From positions 1 to 33,299 of IMG/VR virus record IMGVR_UViG_3300031539_000168: DNA of 33,299 nucleotides; one strand, given 5' to 3'. Position 1 is the first letter of the stretch; every line of letters begins with the position of its first letter. The translations under genes and the position numbers were made by a program. Below, piece after piece: positions 4,059 to 32,525 of this stretch. The notes under the pieces were generated by a model. It saw only the letters and a list, made by a program, of their open reading frames with translations, searched no databases and was not told where the DNA came from. The DNA comes from a virus.

Positions 4059-4743
4059 TGCTCATCGTCCTGTCTGGAGGATCGATCCCCCTGTAGATTT
4101 TACGTAAGTGGTCTATAACGTCACAAGCAAGTGCGAAATCTTGCGCTGTCTTGATCCAATCACCGTCCTCACTATAGTTGACGGTACGGTCGAGGTGTAT
4201 AGGGTGGAGCATAGGCAGAACCGGATACCTGATCTCGGTGTGTCTTCCTTGTAGATGGAACGTCTGCATTATCCCACGTGTCTTTGTTATGCTTGATCCA
4301 ACCTTGCCACATAGAGCCTGCGTGGCAAGACCGCCAAGTGTGATGATGAGTAGGGGATCTACTATATAGATCGTTTCCATGAGACGATCTCTACACCCCT
4401 CTTTTTCAGCCTTGGAAGGCTTACGGTTCTCTATATGTAGAATACCTTCGTCATCAGGTACTTTCGCTGTAGGTCTGCACGCGACAACGTTAGTAACAAA
4501 TATGTCGCGTGCAGGATCTAGTCTTGCCAGATCGAGGAACTTTGCAAGTATGTCACCAGCTGGTCCTACGAAAGGCATACCTGTTCGATCCTCATGCGCG
4601 CCTGGTGTTTCTCCGACTATGAGTATGTCTGCTTCGGGGTTACCCTCACCAAACACTACCAGATTCCTGGTCTCAGCAAGACCGCATCGCTGGCAATTGA
4701 TCCACTCTTCGCGAAGAACTTGTAAAGCTTTTGGTCGATTCAT
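4045..4743 (-). CDS. Family-4 uracil-DNA glycosylase (4Fe-4S)
   Basis: 232 aa. Removes uracil from DNA to start base-excision repair; family 4 enzymes carry an iron-sulfur cluster. The motifs are all in place: Cys17 and Cys20 in CQRC, Cys89 in VVACRPT and Cys117 in KEGCRDRL provide the four cluster ligands; GETPGAHED at 44-52 is motif 1; MPFVGPAG at 56-63 follows; HP at 180-181 belongs to the HPxxL motif. Length matches family members (about 200-230). Many annotations call this family 'SPO1 DNA polymerase-related'. It overlaps its neighbours by 4 and 14 bp in the replication/repair operon. No DNA polymerase lies in the window, so it may be a stand-alone repair enzyme or a replisome accessory. 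Confidence 0.88.
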   Translation of the reverse strand: MNRPKALQVLREEWINCQRCGLAETRNLVVFGEGNPEADILIVGETPGAHEDRTGMPFVGPAGDILAKFLDLARLDPARDIFVTNVVACRPTAKVPDDEGILHIENRKPSKAEKEGCRDRLMETIYIVDPLLIITLGGLATQALCGKVGSSITKTRGIMQTFHLQGRHTEIRYPVLPMLHPIHLDRTVNYSEDGDWIKTAQDFALACDVIDHLRKIYRGIDPPDRTMSNEED

Positions 4744-6727: not shown

Positions 6728-7159
6728 TTACTCCCACCGCCAATTCCGGAAAAACTGGTATCCTTCGTAAAAGGCCCCTCGAAGGCTGCCTACAGCCATG
6801 TCTTTCCCCAAACGGTTTAATGGGTTCTCTCCTTCATGGATCAAACCGGGATCCCATGTTGAACCAGTATCCTCATCTACCCCACGGCCTCGTTGCCTAT
6901 CCGCACTACGACCTACGTAAGAACGTGTCGGGGTTGTACGGTAGCCGCTCTGCGCTACTCGAGATGCTGGGACAAAGCTGCGGTCCTCCCTCTGATACTG
7001 GCCAGTTCGTGCACTTGCGTTGTTGGTTACCTCTGCTCGACAAGAGTGTTGAAATCTACAGCTATCGCAATCCATATCTTCCGGGTCATACTGTCTTTCG
7101 TCCCCCCAACATACGGGCTTCTGTGAAGACATACTGTTAACCCTATCTGCGTATGACAA
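6728..7159 (-). CDS. Small Cys-motif protein, first gene of the leftward arm
   Basis: 143 aa, function unknown. Residues 17-40 hold a four-cysteine cluster (Cys17, Cys31, Cys34, Cys40) spaced C-x13-C-x2-C-x5-C with YDPEDMDCDSC. This layout recurs in small phage proteins and could bind zinc or an iron-sulfur cluster. The rest is Arg/Ser/Gly-rich and looks disordered, ending with an aromatic tail (YEGYQFFRNWRW). The start is taken as TTG 7159, because AAGGAG lies exactly 7 nt upstream; the first ATG (7132) has no comparable site. A plus-strand frame across the same DNA encodes a Pro/Leu/Ser-rich polypeptide with no recognisable domain and is rejected. Confidence 0.7.
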   Translation of the reverse strand: MSYADRVNSMSSQKPVCWGDERQYDPEDMDCDSCRFQHSCRAEVTNNASARTGQYQREDRSFVPASRVAQSGYRTTPTRSYVGRSADRQRGRGVDEDTGSTWDPGLIHEGENPLNRLGKDMAVGSLRGAFYEGYQFFRNWRWE

Positions 7160-14285: not shown

Positions 14286-14441
14286 ATGGCACGACTTGAC
14301 CCAGAAGAGGGCCTCAGAGCTCTCAAAGATCGGGGAGAGACCAGCGCTATAGAAAGGTGGGAAGTAACCCACCCTACTACAAGCAAGATCAAAAATAAGA
14401 TTACCCGGACCCTACCTGGAGACATGCTATGGCTAGATTAG
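14286..14441 (+). CDS. 51-aa leader ORF duplicating the RNA polymerase N-terminus
   Basis: Encodes 51 aa. Residues 1-16 (MARLDPEEGLRALKDR) match the first 16 of the RNA polymerase that starts 143 bp downstream (MARLDPEEGFEVLKDR), with many synonymous differences. The rest (WEVTHPTTSKIKNKI, ending MLWLD) shows no resemblance to it. TAGGAGACACCC precedes the ATG, and the duplication includes the ribosome site. Its TAG ends 13 nt inside the polymerase gene in another frame, so translation is probably coupled. It could be a regulatory leader, a decoy peptide, or the remnant of an older 5' end. Confidence 0.55.
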   Translation: MARLDPEEGLRALKDRGETSAIERWEVTHPTTSKIKNKITRTLPGDMLWLD

Positions 14442-17400
14442 ATCCAGAAGAAGGGTTTGAGGTTCTAAAAGATCGGGTAAAGGAGACAGTCAAGGGACTC
14501 TTTCCGATCATTGGAAAGAAACACACACTTGAAGTAGACACTGTCGACATCAACGATTCGCTTAGCATCGACGACATCAGGTCGCAGAAGAAGGCGAAAG
14601 ATGCAGGTCGAACTTGGGCAGTGCCTGTAGAGGCCACTGTTAAACTACGCGACAGTGCTACAAATAAGATCATAGACACCCAGAAGATAAAACTACTGGA
14701 CCTGCCTAAGGTCACTCGTAGGTTTTCTCATATCGTCAACGGCCAAGAATATCAGATCGATAACCAGTGGCGTTTGAAGCCTGGTGTCTATTCGATGATC
14801 AAAGACGATGGCGCCTTGAAATCCCAGTTCAATCTATCGAAGGGACGAGGTTTCCACGTCAAGTTCGACCCAAAGGATAAGCGATTCCTTATGGAGTATG
14901 GGACTTCGAATATCCCACTAGCACCCCTCATGCAGGAGTTGGGAGTCTCTCCAGAGAAGATGAAGAAAGACTGGGGCGATCAAATCTCTGCGTCCAATGT
15001 GGAAAATAGAGAACAGGCCCTACTTAAGTTCTACAAAGCATCGACTGGACAAAAGACATCAGACACAGACCTTGCCCGCCAACACCTATGGGACACGTTT
15101 CAGAACACTGAAATGGGCAAAGGGGAGGTCAACAAAATCACCTTAGGTAAGAACTACCAGAGGGTGAATGGCGACTCTCTCTTGGATGCGTCTAAGAAAC
15201 TGTTGAGTATCTCGCAAGGCACGGCTACGCCAGATCCACGTGACTCTTTGATGTTCAAAGACTTGCACTCAGTAGAAGACTTCACAGCGGAACGTATCCA
15301 AAAGGGCGCGTATGATATCAACAGGCGTGTACGTAACACGATTGATCGTCGTACAAAAGTCAAGGACATAGTAGGGTCCGACATATTCAACCGCCCAGTA
15401 CAGAGGATGTTTACACATAATTCTCTGGCTAACGTTCCTGAGCAGACCAATCCGTTGGAGATGGTCTCAGGAGCCACTAAGACTACTATTACGGGCGAAG
15501 GTGGAATCAAGGGTGAGCATGGCATTTCTGATGAGGCAAAGCTGATCGACCCATCTCACCTGGGTTACTTAGACCCAATCCACACTCCAGAAGGCAAGTC
15601 TACTGGTGTCTCTTTGCGGTTACCTATCGGTGTTCATAAAGTAGGCCACGAGGTACGCGTCAAGATGTTCGACCCTAATACTGGGAAGAACAGGAACGTT
15701 GGTCCAGGAGCTGCAATGAATGCCACTATCGTACTTCCTGACCAAGTGTCTTGGGAGAATGGTAAGCCTAAGTTCCACGGCAAGACTGTGAAGATGTCTG
15801 GTCCTGGTAACGAGATTGTGGAGGGTGATCCTAAGAAGGCAGATCTCATTATGCGAGATCCGTCGCAGATGTTCTCTATAGCCTCAAACCTCATACCCTT
15901 TATGGCTGCTGACCATCCTAACCGTTCTACAATGGCGGGCCGGCATATGGAGCAGTCAATCCCCTTGGCTCAGCGTGAAGCCCCACTAGTGCAGGCTAAG
16001 TTTGGTAAGCGCACATTTGATGATGTATTGGGAGGCTTCGCCGCGATTAAGGCACCCTCTGGTATTTCAGATGGAACTGTTGTTGATTCGATCAAAGATG
16101 ATGCGATCATTCTAAAAGGGACCGATGGCAAGAAGAGGGAGGTTCAGATCTACAACCACTTCCCGTTGAACGCGGATAAAGCGTTCATCCACTCTACACC
16201 GTCTGTGAAGGTGGGAGACACTGTGAAGAAGGGCCAAATTCTGGCCGACAGTAACTTCACCAAGGGTGGGACCATGGCGCTAGGCACCAACATGCGTGTT
16301 GGGTACATGTCCTATAAGGGTTACAACTTTGAGGACGGCGTTGTCATCAGTGAAACGGCTGCAAAGAAGATGGCGAGTGAGCACCTTCACCGTAAAGCTA
16401 TGCAGCGTGACAAGAACTTCATCTTTGATAAGAACAAGTTCCGCGCTTACACGCCTGACGCTATGAACACGGAACAGTCAGACAAGCTCGATGACGAAGG
16501 TGTTATCAAGCCAGGCACTGTTGTTATGCCTGGCGATACTGTAGTAGCGGCGCTTCGTGAAAGGTTTGAGCATGAACGAGTAGAGGACTCTCAGCTCGCG
16601 AAGATCCACAAGTCTGCCGTAAAACCGTACCGTGACGCTAGCCTCAAGTGGGAAAAGGACATGCCAGGCATTGTCCAAGAGGTTGTAAAGAAGGGCAAGA
16701 ACCTTTCCGTAAACATAAAGACACTAGAACCTATGGAGATCGGCGACAAGCTGGCCGGTCGCCACGGTAACAAGGGTATCGTCACGAAGATCATCCGTGA
16801 CGATGAGATGCCACATACAAAAGATGGGGTACCCCTTGAGGTGCTACTCAACCCAACCGGTGTCCCAGGTCGTACTAACCTGGGGCAGGTTCTCGAGACT
16901 GCAGCAGGGAAGATCGCTCTAAAGACAGGGCAGCCTTACGTCGTAAAGAACTTCCAGCCTGGGGCTGATTTACATAAACAAGTGTCCGACGATCTGAAGG
17001 CCCACGGCATCAGTGACAAAGAGGAAATCTTCGACCCTGCTAATGGGCGGAAGATGGGAGATGTGTTGGTCGGACCTCAACACATGATCAAACTTAAACA
17101 CCAGGTAGATACTAAACTGCGTGCTCGAGCAGGCGGCCCAGGATATGCCTACGACCGTAACCTCATCCCAAAGGGTGGTGGTGCACACGGTGCACAGGCT
17201 TTGGGTACCTTGGGGCTGTACTCTATGTTGGCGCATGGGGCCAAGGCCAACTTACGTGAGATGCAGACGCTCAAGTCTGATGCTGAGCAAGGAGATCAGT
17301 TTTGGACAGCTCTACAAGCAGGTGAGATGTTGCCTGCACCGAGGACAACGTTCGCCTACAAGAAATTCAACAGCTATCTTAACGCCCTCGGAGTGAACGT

Positions 17401-20602: not shown

Positions 20603-21855
20603 TGCCAACTACGTTCAACAACTCCCCTTCATCCTCAACACTAAAAGATGCACGTGTTGAAACGGGTACTGTGGCCAACGCCAACGGCAGGACCATGACT
20701 GTAGACTGGGTGTCACAATACAGTGGGCGTCAGATACTAGACATTCAAGTGATGTCTCCGTACTTCCACTTCAATAACGGAGAAGGGTTCTCTATTCTCC
20801 CGGAGGTGGGAGCCATATGTGCGGTGTGTTTCCCATCTGACGACGACAGTCCTTTCGTAATGGGTTTTTTAAGTGGCCCAGAACTCCTGGGAGCTGAGTC
20901 TTCAGACAACGTACAAGATCAACAAGATGATCCAGAAGTCAACGGGCCGGAAGATATGGAAACACCCATCACAACGTCCGCCGGCGGCTCAACTGAAACG
21001 GGAGAGGGGAATCAATCTGAAGTCACTTATCGTGGTGCTAGACCAATCCTAAACCCAGGTGACCAGATGTGGCAGGGGCGTGATGAGAACTTCGTCATCC
21101 TCAGAAGAGGTGGGGTTCTCCAGATTGGTGCTACCAAGATCGCTCAACGTGCCTACATTCCGATAGATAACTTTATCCGAGACTTCTGTGAGAACTATGA
21201 GCTTGTAACTGCATCAGGGTCACTGTCTTGGACTGTTGAGCGTCAGGAGAATGACCCCGAAGGTAATGCCCCAACAAACCTATCTCTTGTTGCTCGTGAG
21301 TTCGCACAAGATGCGAAAGCGTCAGTACGTTTGAGTGTAGGCAGTCTCGATGCTGTCGATCCTGTACCTGGAGACAGTACAGGAAAGTCATACATAGAAC
21401 TGGTTATTGCACCGCAGGGAATCAACCCAGACACTGGAGAGGTTGAAGGGACTCAAGTGTATGCCTTACGCTTGGACAAAGTAGGCAACAGTTTCCAGAT
21501 GCAGTCGGGTACTCGGACAGACAAGATTGGCGGCGCATGGGATGTTACTGTCGAGAAGAACCACAGTCTCACAGTTAAAGGAGATCGTAAGACCAGCGTG
21601 GGTGGTGTCGATTCGACTACGATCAAGGGCGACCACGTTGTTGAAGGCAGTGCTGGGAGCAAGGAAACTTGGACCGGATTAAAGTCGATCAGTGCGGCGA
21701 TACTGAAGCTTGGAGGGGATGCGGCTTCCGAACCCCTGCTGAAAGGGTTACAATCAGTAGCCTGGCTAGCATCACACTCTCATCCAGGTACAGGACCTCC
21801 TATTCAAGCCGCAGCATTACCTAGTATTCTTTCCACTACAGTGTTTACAAAGTAG
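20602..21855 (+). CDS. Baseplate central spike (gpV/gp5/VgrG-type)
   Basis: 417 aa. The membrane-piercing tip of the contractile tail. Residues 17-92 form the OB-fold of gpV/gp5 proteins (GTVANANGRTMTVDW, LPEVGAICAVCFPSDD, FVMGFLSG). An acidic/Ser linker follows, then a beta-rich region and a triple beta-helix with short repeats (WDVTVEKNHSLTVKGDRK, TTIKGDHVVEGSAG). H392-S-H394-P near the C-terminus is the HxH motif that coordinates iron at the tips of known phage spikes. No lysozyme domain is present, unlike T4 gp5. The start overlaps the RNA polymerase stop as TGATG, which ties the two genes' translation. Confidence 0.82.
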   Translation: MPTTFNNSPSSSTLKDARVETGTVANANGRTMTVDWVSQYSGRQILDIQVMSPYFHFNNGEGFSILPEVGAICAVCFPSDDDSPFVMGFLSGPELLGAESSDNVQDQQDDPEVNGPEDMETPITTSAGGSTETGEGNQSEVTYRGARPILNPGDQMWQGRDENFVILRRGGVLQIGATKIAQRAYIPIDNFIRDFCENYELVTASGSLSWTVERQENDPEGNAPTNLSLVAREFAQDAKASVRLSVGSLDAVDPVPGDSTGKSYIELVIAPQGINPDTGEVEGTQVYALRLDKVGNSFQMQSGTRTDKIGGAWDVTVEKNHSLTVKGDRKTSVGGVDSTTIKGDHVVEGSAGSKETWTGLKSISAAILKLGGDAASEPLLKGLQSVAWLASHSHPGTGPPIQAAALPSILSTTVFTK

Positions 21856-25764: not shown

Positions 25765-25790
25765 TATAACGCTAGGCAGTGTGTTTTTCG

Positions 25791-27635
25791 ATGAGTACCA
25801 TACATCTAAAAGAGCTCGAAATACTCAAGACCGCTAAGAAGATCAAACTGATCAACTCTTTTATATCTGGACCTGATGGACGGAGATATAGTGAGCCTTT
25901 TTACGATCTGGATGATGAAGGCAACCCTTGTGATTACGACTTTGATGTAGATGTACCCGATCCTACCTTAGATCAAATAACAGGCTTCCATGGAGATCCT
26001 GGCCTGGTAGGTGTTCGACCGAGTGAGTTTGCTGAGACAGCAATACGTATCCCAGAAGCTGGACGTGTCACGGATTTCACTTTTGAAGGACGTGAGTATC
26101 TGCGTAGGATCTACGACTCATCATCAAAGAAGGTCCTACTGAAGTGCGGGCGTCAGGTTGAGAAATCGACAACCGTTGCTAATAAGCTTATTTGTTACGC
26201 GGCCCTGATGAACCACTTCAGGGCTTTGTACGTTGCTCCTTCTGCAGATCAAGCCAAGGTATTCTCCAATGACCGTGTCCGTGACGTCATTGAGAACTCC
26301 CCACTGTTGAAGGCGTACACTCCAGGGGCTCTAAACCAGAACGTGTTCCGGAAGAAGTTTGTCAACTTCTCACAAATCACTCTAAGGTATGCTTATCTGA
26401 CTGCTGATCGCGTACGTGGCATCTCGGCCGATATGATCACTATCGATGAGATTCAGGACATCCTCATCGAGAACATCCCTGTCATCGAGCAATGTGCCTT
26501 CCACTCTCCAGTTAAGCAGTTTCTTTACTCTGGTACACCCAAGTCCCTTGATAACACCATAGAGCACTACTGGCAGGAGTTCTCCACTCAAAACGAGTGG
26601 ACTGTGCCTTGTGAACGCCATGGTACGCCAAAAGACCCAGGCTCTTGGCATTGGAATGTGTTGGACATTTCCAACATAGGTAAGAAGTGTTTGATTTGCG
26701 ATAAGTGTGGTGGGGCTATAGATCCCCAACACCCTCACGCACAGTGGACGTCTTTGAATCCGGTCGACAAGAACAATGCCGAGAAGGTCACGTTTGACGG
26801 CTACCGTGTTCCGCAGATCATGGTACCGTGGGTTGACTGGCAGGAGGTTGTTGAGGCCCTCGAGCAATACCCTCGTCCTAAGTTCATGAACGAGAAGCTG
26901 GGGATGTCTTACGACTCCGGCGTCAAACCCATTACACGTGCACAGCTTAAAGCGTGTTGCCGACCAGAACTTAGAATTTCTGACATCGACTCTATCAAGA
27001 GCATCATTGGCGGCAGACCAGTGTACTGCGGTATAGACTGGGGTACAGGAGAGAATGCCAGTTATACGATGATCTCTTTCGGTGCATACATAGGTACTGG
27101 CAACTTCACAATCTTCTATATCCACAGGTTTACAGGTCATGACTTGGAGCCTGATAGACAGTTGGATGCCATTCGCCAAATGGTTTCTCAGATGAACACA
27201 CGTATTGTAGGTACGGACTACGGTGGTGGCTTCTATCAGAACGACAAACTTATTAGGACCTTCGGTCCTAAGAGGGTATTCAAGTACAACTACAACTGGC
27301 GGCAGAAGAAACTCATCTACTGGGAGCCCAACCTAAAAAGGTTCATGGTCCATCGTACAGAGGTAATGAATGCCATCTTCACAGCCATGAAGGACCGGAA
27401 AATTGACCTACCTTGTTGGGACGATTTTCACGAGCCCTTTGGCTCAGACATCCTAAGCATCTTTACGGAGTACAATGAGCAACTCCGTATGGATCAATTT
27501 AAGAAATCCCCTGGAAAGACAGACGATGCTTTCCACTCAATCTTACTGTGTGTGTTGGCATCGATGATTGAGCATGAACGGCCGGACATCCTGATCCCAG
27601 GTAAAGAAACAGGTATCTCAATAAAACATGGCTAA
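25791..27635 (+). CDS. terL: Terminase large subunit
   Basis: 614 aa. ATP-powered motor and nuclease that packages DNA into the prohead through the portal. ATPase domain: Walker A variant CGRQVEKST at 119-127 (a Glu in place of the usual Gly), Walker B MITIDE at 215-220, coupling motif SGTP at 247-250. A zinc-ribbon-like insertion follows (C274, then CLICDKC with C300, C303, C306). Nuclease domain: CGIDWGTGENAS with the first metal Asp, VGTDYGGG with the second, and KTDDAFHS with the third acidic site. ATG 25791 is chosen over an in-frame GTG at 25779; neither has a good ribosome site, so the start is uncertain. A bidirectional hairpin follows the stop. Confidence 0.92.
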   Translation: MSTIHLKELEILKTAKKIKLINSFISGPDGRRYSEPFYDLDDEGNPCDYDFDVDVPDPTLDQITGFHGDPGLVGVRPSEFAETAIRIPEAGRVTDFTFEGREYLRRIYDSSSKKVLLKCGRQVEKSTTVANKLICYAALMNHFRALYVAPSADQAKVFSNDRVRDVIENSPLLKAYTPGALNQNVFRKKFVNFSQITLRYAYLTADRVRGISADMITIDEIQDILIENIPVIEQCAFHSPVKQFLYSGTPKSLDNTIEHYWQEFSTQNEWTVPCERHGTPKDPGSWHWNVLDISNIGKKCLICDKCGGAIDPQHPHAQWTSLNPVDKNNAEKVTFDGYRVPQIMVPWVDWQEVVEALEQYPRPKFMNEKLGMSYDSGVKPITRAQLKACCRPELRISDIDSIKSIIGGRPVYCGIDWGTGENASYTMISFGAYIGTGNFTIFYIHRFTGHDLEPDRQLDAIRQMVSQMNTRIVGTDYGGGFYQNDKLIRTFGPKRVFKYNYNWRQKKLIYWEPNLKRFMVHRTEVMNAIFTAMKDRKIDLPCWDDFHEPFGSDILSIFTEYNEQLRMDQFKKSPGKTDDAFHSILLCVLASMIEHERPDILIPGKETGISIKHG

Positions 27636-27672: not shown

Positions 27673-28215
27673 TTAGTCTACGATCGTTTCTACCACCGCT
27701 TCTACGGCGTCCTCCATGAGGTATTCCACGAGGCGGTAAGCCCCGTATCCCACAGCACCCCAGAACGTCACGCGTCCGAAACCGTCCAAGGCAGCAGACA
27801 TCTTGTTCGGCCCGCCCTTTGTTCGGAACCGGTAATACGGTGCTGTGACGAGTGCTTCGCCGTAGCTGTCGACTCGATGAGCGCCTCGGTTGGCCAACGA
27901 TTCGGTGTGCTCATCGTTGGCCTCGTAGTAGAGGTCTTCAGCAAGTTCGATGACTTTGTCTTTTGGAGCTTGTTGCCCCAGGATCAGCTGTGCCATCTGC
28001 GTGGCGTGTCTTTGAGCATCTTTATGCTCACCCGCTCTGATGCAGTGTTTCATGCTGATGTGCACGGTTGAAATACCCTCCTGCGATGACTCGTTTTGTT
28101 GGGTGTTTCCATTAGCCAACACCTCGTCCAGACGATCTAATACGTCGATACCTTTGCAGGGGAGATCGGTAGGCACGTTTGTTTCTTTGGTCTCTTCAGT
28201 CTTGTTTCTTGACAT
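27673..28215 (-). CDS. Hypothetical protein sharing a segment with the prohead protease
   Basis: 180 aa. Residues 14-29 (VPTDLPCKGIDVLDRL) match residues 350-367 of the prohead protease (VPTNLPCK, two extra residues, DVLDRL) at nearly identical DNA level. The middle has a helix with KHCIRAGEHKDAQRHATQMAQLIL; the C-terminus has a hydrophobic/aromatic amphipathic stretch (VTFWGAVGYGAYRLVEYL). GGAAGGA lies about 8 nt before the ATG. Convergent with terL and read through a terminator hairpin at its 3' end. A competing plus-strand frame over the same DNA starts inside terL and shows no domain. Function is unknown. Confidence 0.72.
   Translation of the reverse strand: MSRNKTEETKETNVPTDLPCKGIDVLDRLDEVLANGNTQQNESSQEGISTVHISMKHCIRAGEHKDAQRHATQMAQLILGQQAPKDKVIELAEDLYYEANDEHTESLANRGAHRVDSYGEALVTAPYYRFRTKGGPNKMSAALDGFGRVTFWGAVGYGAYRLVEYLMEDAVEAVVETIVD
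28128..28177 (-). repeat. Inverted near-identical repeat, copy A (in the 180-aa gene)
   Basis: In the gene's direction this 50-bp block has 25 of 26 bases plus 20 of 20 bases identical with copy B at 31727-31782, the two parts being separated by 4 bp here and 10 bp in copy B. The difference of 6 bp keeps both reading frames. The copies are in inverted orientation and 3.5 kb apart. Confidence 0.9.
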
Positions 28216-28333
28216 TGGTCTGGTCCTTCCACTGTGTCTGCGTTTTCAACATGACGGCGCAATAAACCGAAGGTGGGAGATTAGATTTTCCACCTCACAA
28301 TCCTTATCTCAGATAATAGTGATCTTTTTCGCA

Positions 28334-28831
28334 CTAAATGATCGTAGACAGATCGTCACCCCTGAGAAGTACTTTTGTGCGCCCAGATATACCCTTCGGG
28401 TACTTACGGACCATAACCACTGCGACATCTCTGATGTTTTTGAGTCCCTTGTTCAACACAGCGTACAATTGCTGAACTTGGTAGTCAGTGCTGACCAACT
28501 TAGAGGTACGTACTCGGGTACATAGTTTGGTACACAGAACGTAGAACGGTTCCCATGTGTGGTCGTAGTCGACAATACTTTGGAGGCGTGTGTACTCGTA
28601 TTCTGAGAGCTGCAAGAATATCTCTGCCCACCTTTCTACGACCTCCATATCGAATCCCTTGGGCGGAATCGCTAACAAATGGGCAGCATCCTGGTACAGA
28701 GACAGTAGCTTCTCATCATCCAAGTCTCGTAACCCTGATAGGTCTAAGCCATTTATGCGGAGAAGGAACTCCACCTGGCGCTCAAGACTTGCTACTCTGG
28801 CCTCTAGTACTCTTTCGGAACGTCCGGACAT
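28334..28831 (-). CDS. Hypothetical coiled-coil protein
   Basis: 165 aa, unrecognised. The N-terminal 25 residues (GRSERVLEARVASLERQVEFLL) form a heptad coiled coil. The remainder is mixed helical with charged and aromatic residues (VVERWAEIFLQLSEYEYTRL) and a basic C-terminal region (VVMVRKYPKGISGRTKVLLRGDD). ATG 28831 is taken as the start, with GGGAAG upstream; an in-frame GTG at 28903 would overlap the rightward promoters at 28841-28925. It is separated by 118 bp from the next gene of the same strand; that gap holds small hairpins but no clear promoter. A plus-strand frame across the region is rejected. Confidence 0.65.
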   Translation of the reverse strand: MSGRSERVLEARVASLERQVEFLLRINGLDLSGLRDLDDEKLLSLYQDAAHLLAIPPKGFDMEVVERWAEIFLQLSEYEYTRLQSIVDYDHTWEPFYVLCTKLCTRVRTSKLVSTDYQVQQLYAVLNKGLKNIRDVAVVMVRKYPKGISGRTKVLLRGDDLSTII

Positions 28832-28840
28832 CTGGACAAC

Positions 28841-28870
28841 TTCCCACGATCTGGATGATGTGGCTATAAT
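28841..28870 (+). promoter_or_regulatory. Upstream tandem promoter with perfect -10
   Basis: TTCCCA (28841-28846, four of six matches), an 18-bp spacer and a perfect TATAAT (28865-28870). It is located 55 bp upstream of the stronger promoter at 28897-28925, so the head genes may have tandem promoters. Confidence 0.45.
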
Positions 28871-28896
28871 GCAGTGGTTCAGTTCGTGCAGGCTTG

Positions 28897-28925
28897 TTGA
28901 CACTGTAAGACCTGGTCCATATCAT
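28897..28925 (+). promoter_or_regulatory. Strong sigma70-like promoter for the second head-gene block
   Basis: TTGACA (28897-28902), a 17-bp spacer and TATCAT (28920-28925, five of six). The expected start near 28932 leaves a leader of about 16 nt before ATG 28948. It is the best consensus promoter in the window and shares TTGACAC, GGTCC and TATCATT blocks with the promoter at 7241. Confidence 0.72.
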
Positions 28926-28947
28926 TTCCAATGTTTATGAGGATTCA

Positions 28948-29871
28948 ATGAACGATCAGCCTGGCTCTGTCCCACTTGCGCTTGTCCAACAACAGGCGGC
29001 TAACCCAATTGACCCCGAGCAGCTAGAGCTGATGGGGAAACAAGCAGCCAAGTTGTACCGTTCTCAAGGGTGTCGTTTGAACGATGCTGTTGTGCAGATA
29101 GTCAAAACAGCACAGCTCGCACCTGAGCAGGTAAAGAGGGTGTGTGAGTTTGCGAACACATCAGCGTACCTGGAGGAGTTCGAGAAGGCTGGTGAGATGC
29201 GGAATATCACCTTTGACGGAGGGCCGGCAAACCCAGGTGTGGTCCTTCAAGAGCTGAATGACGGCACCGCTCCTGCCATTCACCAGGTGGATTCGTCAGA
29301 CTATAACGAGCCTGTGAGCAGCTACAAGGTGGCCGCAGCAGGGGACGATTTCCTGGCCAGAGCTTTCGGGCATGGTGGTATGCAGAAGGTTGCCGAGGCC
29401 AACCACAGTTTACACGCTGATCCCATTGAGGATTTACGGGATATGCGTATCAAACTGTCCAGTATGCGTGACAACTTCAACAGTACTCTGAGCAGCATGC
29501 GTGTTGGACTCGATGACGTTGAGTCTGACCTTCTGAAAGAAGCTACGCAGGCTGTTGTAGATGGTGTCAGTTTGGGTGACATTCGTAGGGCATGGGGCCA
29601 AACTGGTGCAGATGACTTCTTTGTGAAGAAGGCCATGGTTTCGATTGGTAAACACCTACAGGCTCGTGGAGTAGATAGAGACGCCCTATCGGTGTCCTAT
29701 ACGAAGGTTGCCGGCGCTGGGATTGTGGCAAACCCAGCGCATCCTTTGATGTCGAAGTTTGCTGCTTTCGCCAAAATGAGTCGTGAGCTTATGAAGCTCG
29801 GTTACGCCGTTGAAGTGGCTGAAACCGAGCTTGCAAAGGTGAATGCCCAAATTAAAAGGAGCATCTCATGA
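28948..29871 (+). CDS. Putative head/internal protein
   Basis: 307 aa. Residues 20-80 carry a helical domain (LMGKQAAKLYRSQGCRLNDAV, TAQLAPEQVKRVCEFANTSA) of the kind found in proteins of large phages encoded close to the capsid genes; I know of no assigned function. The middle (FLARAFGHGGMQKVAEANH) is followed by a long coiled coil (DLRDMRIKLSSMRDNFN) and a Lys/Ala-rich C-terminus. Eight K-x-A tripeptides occur. TGAGGATTCA precedes the ATG and a strong promoter lies just upstream. It is likely a virion or assembly protein at the start of an operon leading to the protease and scaffold. Confidence 0.62.
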   Translation: MNDQPGSVPLALVQQQAANPIDPEQLELMGKQAAKLYRSQGCRLNDAVVQIVKTAQLAPEQVKRVCEFANTSAYLEEFEKAGEMRNITFDGGPANPGVVLQELNDGTAPAIHQVDSSDYNEPVSSYKVAAAGDDFLARAFGHGGMQKVAEANHSLHADPIEDLRDMRIKLSSMRDNFNSTLSSMRVGLDDVESDLLKEATQAVVDGVSLGDIRRAWGQTGADDFFVKKAMVSIGKHLQARGVDRDALSVSYTKVAGAGIVANPAHPLMSKFAAFAKMSRELMKLGYAVEVAETELAKVNAQIKRSIS

Positions 29872-30182
29872 CTCCAGAACGACTAACACTGTTATCGGGA
29901 TTGATAAAGGAGGCTAGACCCGGTGGTCTGGTTCCTGCTGTATTAGGTTCTGCAAAAGACTTGTGGGGGGCAGTTGCCGGCGGGGCAAATGTGGCTTCTA
30001 GGGTCATTAAGAGATCTCCGCATCTCCCCGATGCTTTGGGGACAGCTGTGAAGTACTCCCCCCATGCCGCTGCAGCATACGGAGGCAAGAAGGTGTACGA
30101 TTCACAGCCCGTGCAAGATGCGAAGTGGAAGTTCCAAGTCTGGAATGCACGCCGAAAGCAACAAAAGGCAATGGGGTACTGA
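29868..30182 (+). CDS. Small hydrophobic/basic hypothetical protein
   Basis: 104 aa, unrecognised. A short N-terminal helix (ERLTLLSGLIKEARPGG) resembles those of the next gene and of the Gly-zipper protein at 10116. It continues with a moderately hydrophobic segment (VPAVLGSAKDLWGAVAGGANV) and a basic Trp-containing C-terminus (DAKWKFQVWNARRKQQK). ATGA overlap with the preceding gene and AAAGGAG upstream. It could be an internal head or DNA-ejection component, by composition and place only. Confidence 0.58.
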   Translation: MTPERLTLLSGLIKEARPGGLVPAVLGSAKDLWGAVAGGANVASRVIKRSPHLPDALGTAVKYSPHAAAAYGGKKVYDSQPVQDAKWKFQVWNARRKQQKAMGY

Positions 30183-30183
30183 A

Positions 30184-30681
30184 ATGGCAAATGCTGTTGA
30201 TGATTTTTTGAAGGAAGCGGGGTTCTTATCAGACCTTGGAAGGGGTCTGATGGGTGAAGGTGGGAAAGGTTTTGGTCACGCTGTGGGACAAAACCTATTG
30301 GGTGCTGGGATCGCGGTAGGTGTGGGTGCCGCCTCAACAGGGGCTTACAGTGCTTTTAAGAAGATCATGGACTATAGAGCGAGTCCTCGCGATTACCAGG
30401 CGATGATGTCGGCACACCCATCCCTCAAGAAAAAGCCCGCTCGCCAGGTACAGATGCTTTACAATTCGCTACGCACTACAGCACCTGATATGGCGAAAGA
30501 CCCACTGATTGCCGGGTCTTTCATACGAAACATGATGGCTGTCCAACCTGATGAAGGTCTGGCCATCCCCATGGATACAGTGAAGACACTGGCTGATACG
30601 CAAAAAGGCATATCGGACGCACGCTCAAAAGACAAAGCTCCCGATTTCTTTAACCCCCTACTCCGCCCAAGTATCGGCTAA
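30184..30681 (+). CDS. Hypothetical protein with Gly-rich hydrophobic segment
   Basis: 165 aa. The N-terminal helix (AVDDFLKEAGFLSDLG) is followed by a glycine-rich hydrophobic stretch (GHAVGQNLLGAGIAVGVG), possibly membrane-active, and a C-terminal globular part (RQVQMLYNSLRTTAPDMAKDP, then AGSFIRNMM). ATG 30184 is used, following GGGG and directly after the previous stop; a longer in-frame version beginning at 30064 lies inside the preceding gene and is unsupported. It belongs to the protease operon and is probably a head-internal or ejection-type protein. The C-terminal segment recurs, in my recollection, in other large-phage structural genes. Confidence 0.58.
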   Translation: MANAVDDFLKEAGFLSDLGRGLMGEGGKGFGHAVGQNLLGAGIAVGVGAASTGAYSAFKKIMDYRASPRDYQAMMSAHPSLKKKPARQVQMLYNSLRTTAPDMAKDPLIAGSFIRNMMAVQPDEGLAIPMDTVKTLADTQKGISDARSKDKAPDFFNPLLRPSIG

Positions 30682-32525
30682 TGATCATAAAGGTCTGCCA
30701 GTTTACCGCCCAGGCTGAGGGCGGACGCCTTGTTCAGGTCTTTCATCCAGGAGAGATGGAGAAGGCTGCTTCGTTTTTCGGTATGGGGAAAACTGCCGCA
30801 CCAATGTTACCAAAGGTGCAGCAGTATCTCGAGCAGCTGGCACCTCATCCTAATAAGATCTATGTCTTGGTCAACGCCTTGGGTGCGGGAGAGTTTTGGG
30901 GATCGAACATCAATGGTGACTATTTCCCAGAGAGTTCGCTAATCCATAAAGGTATGGACTGGGGATACGAGACGTTCTACAACGCTTACCCATTCAAGCA
31001 TCATGTCAACAAAGACCCCTCCCGCTCATTCGGAAAAGTGGAGTTGGCTTGTTGGCACGACGACATGAAACGTGTCGAGTTGGTGGTCTCAGTCGATCGA
31101 GAACTTGCTCTGAAATTTGGTGCTCAAGATGTCGTAGATAAGCTCGAACAGGGGATGTTTCCCGATGTATCGATGGGCTGCAAAGTCCCCTACGATCTGT
31201 GTTCTATCTGTTTGGATTGGAAGAGCTACCGTAGAGCACAATCTACTTTCGAACCCGGCAAACACAAAACGGTAGGACAGGCTGTCCTACTCTCCCACAG
31301 GAAGACACCAATTAGAGGGGTGTCTGTAACACGGGATGACTACTGTGAGCACCTCGGCAAGATGCTCAACAAGATCCTCCCCGATGGCCGTAAAGTCTAC
31401 GCGATCAACGACTATCCTCGATTCTTTGATATCAGTTTCGTATTTATTGGGGCCGATAAGACCGCTAAGGTCATGGCCAAGTTGGCCACTGCTCACATCG
31501 GCAGTGGGGCAGCTGTACCATCGTGGTATGTGGCTGAACAGCTTGGTTACCAGCCTGAGACGGAAAAGGGTTTTGAAAAAGCCGCATCTGCTCAGACGCA
31601 CGTTTCCATGGAGAAATCGGCGGGTATCTCTGAGGTGTTAGCCGCTCTGCGTGAGAAGAAGGCTTCCCAACGGAAGAGGGCAGAGATTATAAAGGACGTT
31701 GCTCCGAGCCAATTTGGCGGAAAAGCCGTGCCTACCAATCTCCCCTGCAAAGATCTCCCAGACGACGTATTAGATCGTCTGGGTGAACACCCAAGCCTGT
31801 CTGAGGCCCTCTCTACGCCTTCATCTATGGGGATTGTGCTGAAACCACGCGAGTTTCAGCGTGTTCTCACCATCCACATGGGGCAGCGTTCATTGGCTGA
31901 CGAGCTGGATAGTCAGGGTCTGACTATCCCACCTGTGGACGATGTTGCCCCCGCCGCACCCATGGGTGCACAGCACTTTAGTGACATTTTGAAGAAGCTA
32001 CTCCTGCCTCACATTGGTGAGCGGAGTATGTTGGAACCCCCTCTTAAACGCCGAATCATACAGATCACTGTGTCTGGTGGACCAACCGTGAATGAGGGTC
32101 CCGTAAAGCTAGCTTCAGTTACCCCCTTCCTAGAGAAGATCTCTGCTGCATATAATGGCTACATCGAAGACACCCTCGGCTGTCTTTATACGGCAGAACA
32201 TGTTATTGAGCAGAACCCAGATCTTGCAGCAAAAGTCTTCAACGTTGGAGTTGGGGACCTATTCCAAAAAACCGCCGCAGGTATCGATCCCAGGGTTGTA
32301 TTTGGATCGATCGCTGGTGGTTTTGCGTTGTCTCAATACGCAGACTGGAAGCGGAGGAAGGCTATGATGGGATCAGGCCCTCCAATTGGAGCCGTCACGG
32401 ATATGGTGGCTCAGAATCCGAAGATGCTTATGGCCTTAGCGGGCCTGGTGGCTTTACAACAACAAGGCTCTTCTATACCAAGACGTCTTGGTGCTGGTAT
32501 AAAGGGTCTAATCACAGGTAACTGA
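30681..32525 (+). CDS. Prohead maturation protease with long C-terminal extension
   Basis: 614 aa. Proposed serine protease of the prohead (assemblin-like fold). In residues 60-175: GSNINGDYFPESSL at 74-87, the candidate catalytic His in KHHVNKDPSRSFGKV (H107 or H108), an adjacent strand pair, and the candidate catalytic Ser in DVSMGCKV (S164), in the order H then S as in U35-type proteases. A zinc-like CSIC (174-177) and a later YCEHL follow. IRGVSVTRDD and NDYPRFFDISFVFIGADKTA continue the domain. The C-terminal half, Lys/Ala-rich, may be scaffold. KAAS (twice), KKAS and KLAS occur. The start overlaps the preceding TAA as TAATG. Residues 350-367 carry the repeat shared with the minus-strand gene. 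Confidence 0.68.
   Translation: MIIKVCQFTAQAEGGRLVQVFHPGEMEKAASFFGMGKTAAPMLPKVQQYLEQLAPHPNKIYVLVNALGAGEFWGSNINGDYFPESSLIHKGMDWGYETFYNAYPFKHHVNKDPSRSFGKVELACWHDDMKRVELVVSVDRELALKFGAQDVVDKLEQGMFPDVSMGCKVPYDLCSICLDWKSYRRAQSTFEPGKHKTVGQAVLLSHRKTPIRGVSVTRDDYCEHLGKMLNKILPDGRKVYAINDYPRFFDISFVFIGADKTAKVMAKLATAHIGSGAAVPSWYVAEQLGYQPETEKGFEKAASAQTHVSMEKSAGISEVLAALREKKASQRKRAEIIKDVAPSQFGGKAVPTNLPCKDLPDDVLDRLGEHPSLSEALSTPSSMGIVLKPREFQRVLTIHMGQRSLADELDSQGLTIPPVDDVAPAAPMGAQHFSDILKKLLLPHIGERSMLEPPLKRRIIQITVSGGPTVNEGPVKLASVTPFLEKISAAYNGYIEDTLGCLYTAEHVIEQNPDLAAKVFNVGVGDLFQKTAAGIDPRVVFGSIAGGFALSQYADWKRRKAMMGSGPPIGAVTDMVAQNPKMLMALAGLVALQQQGSSIPRRLGAGIKGLITGN
31727..31782 (+). repeat. Inverted near-identical repeat, copy B (in the protease gene)
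   Basis: Partner of 28128-28177: 26 bp (one mismatch), a 10-bp spacer instead of 4, then 20 identical bp. It encodes residues V350-L367 in the frame of the protease. Confidence 0.9.

Follow-up and report, generated by a model that had tools for sequence, protein, structure and literature searches.

A short inverted repeat between a presumed prohead protease gene and a variable minus-strand gene of an uncultured phage, probably left by templated copying

Short-patch double illegitimate recombination in bacteria produces ectopic patches that range from a few bases to several tens, and in Acinetobacter it is a single-strand process. The Rickettsia palindromic elements are mobile palindromes that occur in many copies and lie in frame in unrelated genes. 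Templated insertions and template switches are described in yeast and cancer (PMC11724301, PMC8604942, PMC8421209), and coding inverted repeats of up to 284 bp, each within one gene and in conserved protein regions, are described in the mitochondria of nematomorphs (PMC6649704). Phage DNA of an uncultured large phage, the complete 33,299-base IMG/VR virus record IMGVR_UViG_3300031539_000168 (the whole of which is called the window), carries a short inverted repeat inside two unrelated genes; no report of phage copies of such a kind was found in the open-licence literature. The genes and the two copies are arranged as follows.

25779-27635, plus strand: terL, terminase large subunit, which anchors the syntenic block on its left side (Pfam and PHROGs scans).
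27673-28215, minus strand: minus1, a fast-evolving 180-aa ORF that is conserved in a C-terminal segment of some 50 aa; the recipient.
28128-28177, minus strand: the recipient's 50-bp copy, which covers minus1 residues 14-29, VPTDLPCKGIDVLDRL.
28334-28903, minus strand: m2, a conserved gene of unassigned function between the copies (tblastn in relatives).
28948-29871, 29868-30182 and 30184-30681, plus strand: three conserved genes between the copies (synteny).
30681-32525, plus strand: presumed prohead (capsid maturation) protease, 614 aa; the donor (tblastn to a gene of Gordonia phage Stormageddon).
31727-31782, plus strand: donor segment in the protease gene, protease residues 350-367, VPTNLPCKDLPDDVLDRL, native in relatives.

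The window also encodes a probable portal protein (weak match) and a fused RNA polymerase of 2057 aa. The RNA polymerase gene has its first 16 codons (MARLDPEEG...LKDR) duplicated just upstream (14286-14339 and 14429-14482) with 70% DNA identity and 13 of 16 residues in common, and the upstream duplicate opens a short ORF that begins at 14286 and overlaps the RNA polymerase start. The other RNA polymerase starts found in the relatives' loci are single copy each.

The two copies of the inverted repeat are separated by 3.5 kb and, read in the coding direction, measure 50 nt in minus1 and 56 nt in the protease gene. The preliminary description placed them correctly, and it was also right that they differ in length by 6 bp, which BLAST aligns as one 6-nt gap, and that both encode the shared peptide in the same frame, the frame of their ORFs. 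The first 26 nt match at 25 positions and the last 20 nt at all 20, and the middle reads GTAT (4 nt) in minus1 and ATCTCCCAGA (10 nt) in the protease; the earlier figure of 45 identities in 46 aligned bases holds for these outer blocks and omits the 4-nt middle of the shorter copy. Over the whole pair BLAST gives 47 of 50 identical bases and the gap (56 columns, 83.9%, E 6.15e-7), and a query of positions 28100-28230 against the entire record matches itself and one other place only. The best self-match in 100 windows resampled under an order-2 Markov model has an E of 0.002, and none of the 100 is at or below 6.15e-7. The repeat between minus1 and the protease is real, and a chance match is ruled out.

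The codons at the shared residues are identical in 13 of 13 cases (P = 1.4e-7 if codons are drawn independently from the usage of the window), indicating that the DNA itself was copied. On this codon comparison, a conserved peptide with independently chosen codons is excluded as the source of the pair. The option of a recent copy, raised earlier, is supported by the codon identity and now gains a direction, from protease to minus1, whereas the option of a conserved motif whose codons have diverged in relatives falls for this pair, since the codons are identical and minus1 relatives do not have the peptide. The sequence is a metagenomic contig, which is how an assembly or chimeric-read artefact might enter; such an origin is barely credible, however, since the identity blocks (26 and 20 nt, interrupted by a difference of 6 nt) would be too short and too imperfect for an assembly join, and a comparable case is present in an independent contig (L038, below).

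The 614-aa ORF is likely to be a prohead protease by its tblastn match, 28% over residues 50-280 (E 1e-4), to the Stormageddon gene annotated as capsid maturation protease; it has no match among Pfam and PHROG models. Its predicted structure is a poor model (mean pLDDT 50, pTM 0.31) with no match in the PDB at E 0.001 or better, T4 gp21 ranking 20th at E 0.75, and the model and the PDB search appear neither to support nor to refute the name. Single-protein scans with the protease and with minus1 gave no close relatives, and relatives of moderate identity were gathered through terL (13 loci) and through an alignment of the protease (the best 80 of the 252 matches that were confirmed). The protease stretch PSQF..KA......DLP...LD.LG is matched by pattern in 44 of 92 loci, a set that includes duplicates and the window and in which the others are simply unmatched by the pattern. 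P342, S343, Q344, F345, K348, D358, P360 and L367 are invariant in all 15 aligned proteases. In the minus1 copy, D-L-P-D, with the protease-invariant D and P, is replaced by G-I, and one N is changed to D.

Intein-like in-frame insertions at conserved motifs, read from sequence alone, are present in the protease genes of L059 (6684-9467, after PDVSMG), L039 (2162-5125) and L084 (7998-10808), the last two after GAGEFWG or its equivalent. The terL genes of L028 (819-3962) and L079 (1816-4734) also carry intein-like in-frame insertions, presumably in the Walker A region and in a nuclease-like motif, respectively. The window has no such insertion in its protease gene or in its terL.

The minus1 gene belongs to the gene family of the terL-m2 gap and has its conserved C-terminal segment: in a search of 372 gap ORFs from 60 distinct gaps, a profile built from same-place ORFs without the window matches the C-terminal part of minus1 (HMM E 3.2e-6). 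The C-terminus alone is conserved in this family, and the N-termini are variable. The minus1 relatives are without the segment, their N-termini being too divergent to align, and the shared peptide is absent from the 11 other minus1-set ORFs listed from relatives. The flanks on both sides of the minus1 copy are unrelated to those of the protease segment. By tblastn minus1 has no homologue in the relatives' loci; it has no match in viral_contigs and no credible homologue among phages (one match, E 0.9). An empty site was found in no relative, the closest full-length proteases among the best 80 of 252 matches being about 60% identical. A scan with VPT[ND]LPCK matched four records, which were dropped, the peptide lying in one short unrelated ORF in each. 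Since the segment is native to the protease and absent from minus1 relatives, the alignments identify the protease as the donor.

The preliminary description proposed that recombination between the copies would invert the DNA between them. The geometry is suitable: the copies are inverted and in the same frame, with identity blocks of 26 and 20 nt, and homologous or site-specific recombination would flip 3.5 kb and exchange the N-terminal parts of minus1 and the protease, producing two in-frame chimeras. However, the predicted m2-to-protease inversion is present in none of the 73 contigs that carry terL and protease, in a survey of 82 contigs (window included, duplicates removed) of which 9 are incomplete. 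The arrangement is window-like in 71 of the 73, and m2 is opposite to the protease in all 35 contigs holding both. In addition, scans of 25 distinct window ORFs (18 by Pfam, 17 by PHROGs; the record is a fragment) reveal no recombinase domain, one of the chimeras would truncate the protease, a conserved late protein, near residue 367 and lose its conserved C-terminal part, and no second copy of the peptide is present in the 13 loci searched. An inversion of 3.5 kb between the copies is allowed by the geometry and is unsupported; a rare inverted form may occur in the population, and an invertible switch is very unlikely. In the remaining two of the 73 contigs terL itself is flipped relative to the m2-to-protease block (L014 8894-12544 and L015 4843-8493).

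Comparable copies were sought by self-comparison of all loci and of 17 further records with the window (2.19 Mb), and pairs less than 300 bp apart, multi-copy repeats and paralogue-like groups were left out of the tally. Twenty single pairs of 120 bp or less remained, one of which (G015) is a terminal repeat. Only the pairs of the window and of record G001 are at least 40 bp long, at least 94% identical outside gaps, placed with both ends in ORFs and different from leaders. The G001 pair, in locus L038, is a perfect 49-bp direct pair. Its donor is a structural-block gene of 102 aa (7109-7157), and its recipient a minus-strand ORF of 75 aa that lies in the terL-m2 gap (4237-4285). The copy runs antisense to this ORF and encodes another peptide, indicating that it was DNA, and not a peptide, that was copied there. 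Three of nine other records match the L038 repeat once each (86-89% over 35 bases), always in the donor gene. The recipient ORF has no known homologue, and its putative coding status and the probable direction of copying rest on the donor being conserved.

A perfect 28-bp inverted pair in G004 links the portal gene, in the same frame, to the N-terminal part of a minus-strand ORF that is unrelated and the homologues of which align only from about residue 82. Of the 60 distinct gaps that separate terL from the 28948 gene, 2 hold a copy of about 50 bp; such copies are rare in the relatives, and their recurrence rests on few cases. The reading frame of the copy is kept in two of the three cases (the window and G004). 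A 23-bp match in the terL-m2 gap of L020 (E 0.002) was rejected, the recipient peptide AEMLKDLGY being present also in the sister locus L021 and so native.

A different reading is that a functional peptide is shared, a 16-residue motif such as a head-targeting or cleavage signal having been borrowed from the protease, so that minus1 could enter the prohead or undergo processing, and kept by selection. The peptide and its frame are indeed kept, in a region strongly conserved in proteases, and the portal-derived copy of G004 is likewise in frame. However, the most conserved part, D-L-P, is absent from the minus1 copy, which argues against a kept protease-like function, the 11 other minus1-set ORFs do without the peptide, the antisense L038 copy encodes a different one, and zero synonymous changes fit recency better than long selection. 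This reading is unlikely, and the frame and peptide kept in the window and G004 could hint at selection on the peptide.

A 59-bp pair in G002 (95% identity; L103 1049-1107 and L104 7688-7746, that is, G002 21049-21107 and 47688-47746) precedes minus-strand genes and was set aside as a non-coding copy of a leader with a ribosome site and a promoter-like sequence. The same record contains a palindrome-like element, GCAATTAGAC..GTCTAATTGC, a possible operator found at three dispersed places; a TTTGACA box accompanies two of the copies.

L103 10949 (G002 30949): palindrome-like element.
L105 4196 (G002 64196): palindrome-like element.
L107 10860 (G002 110860): palindrome-like element.

Leader-like repeats of this family, such as the 59-bp pair, together with the high nucleotide identity of the window's copies, would suit a DNA or RNA regulatory element common to both genes, for example an operator or an mRNA site. 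Such an element is nevertheless extremely improbable, since both copies in the window lie inside coding sequence, the record has no third place with the repeat, its exact 26-mer has no match in viral_contigs, and the L038 repeat is of unrelated sequence. The marks of a diversity-generating retroelement are absent, as the matched blocks differ by one A/G exchange, with their other adenines unchanged, and no reverse transcriptase is found among the window ORFs scanned (Pfam, PHROGs). The many copies of a Rickettsia-type mobile palindromic element are not seen either, with two places in the record and none for the 26-mer in viral_contigs.

The repeat is quite probably the product of a single short templated (ectopic) copying event from the protease gene to minus1. 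A stretch of the coding strand of the protease, about 50 nt long, would have served as template or filler DNA, and the piece would have been inserted near the 5' end of minus1, or have replaced local sequence there, in the opposite genomic orientation, with the reading frame staying open in minus1 and the protease. The likely route would be a template switch during replication, at the fork, or the capture of single-stranded DNA in the repair of a broken end. The copy may have been tolerated because the N-terminal part of minus1 is variable and weakly constrained, and it would afterwards have changed slightly (N to D; D-L-P-D to G-I) or would have originated from two adjacent pieces. The near-identity of the copies, their shared codons, the direction in which they were copied and the variability of minus1 are demonstrated; we infer the replication or repair mechanism, the recency of the event and the lack of function of the copy.

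It is conceivable, and at present doubtful, that among the large phages of this family accessory minus-strand genes repeatedly receive, in their 5' parts, short copied pieces (about 25-55 bp) of conserved virion genes; if true, new N-termini would arise by a templated route, which would also sustain change in the hypervariable terL-m2 region. What was suspected to be a DNA switch becomes a small readable case in which a gene gains coding sequence of a neighbour in one step, and together with L038 and G004 it points to a means of measuring the frequency with which pieces of structural genes patch phage accessory genes.

The copy is ordinary in kind and recurrent enough in these phages to be mildly interesting. 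Like the Rickettsia palindromic elements, it is short DNA in frame in unrelated genes; unlike them, it has two copies, one of which is native gene sequence. Like the patches of short-patch double illegitimate recombination, it is a short ectopic piece of DNA. It resembles the nematomorph repeats in being inverted and inside coding sequence with both arms encoding protein, and differs in that its arms are 3.5 kb apart and in two unrelated genes (PMC6649704). The templated insertions of the yeast and cancer papers are eukaryotic, whereas in the window's phage contig the copy is a fixed state, with neither the event nor an empty site observed (PMC11724301, PMC8604942, PMC8421209). The window copy nevertheless has a near-identical and intact donor elsewhere in the same genome, and it is like those insertions in being a short copy that leaves the donor intact, has unrelated flanks and may lie in either orientation.
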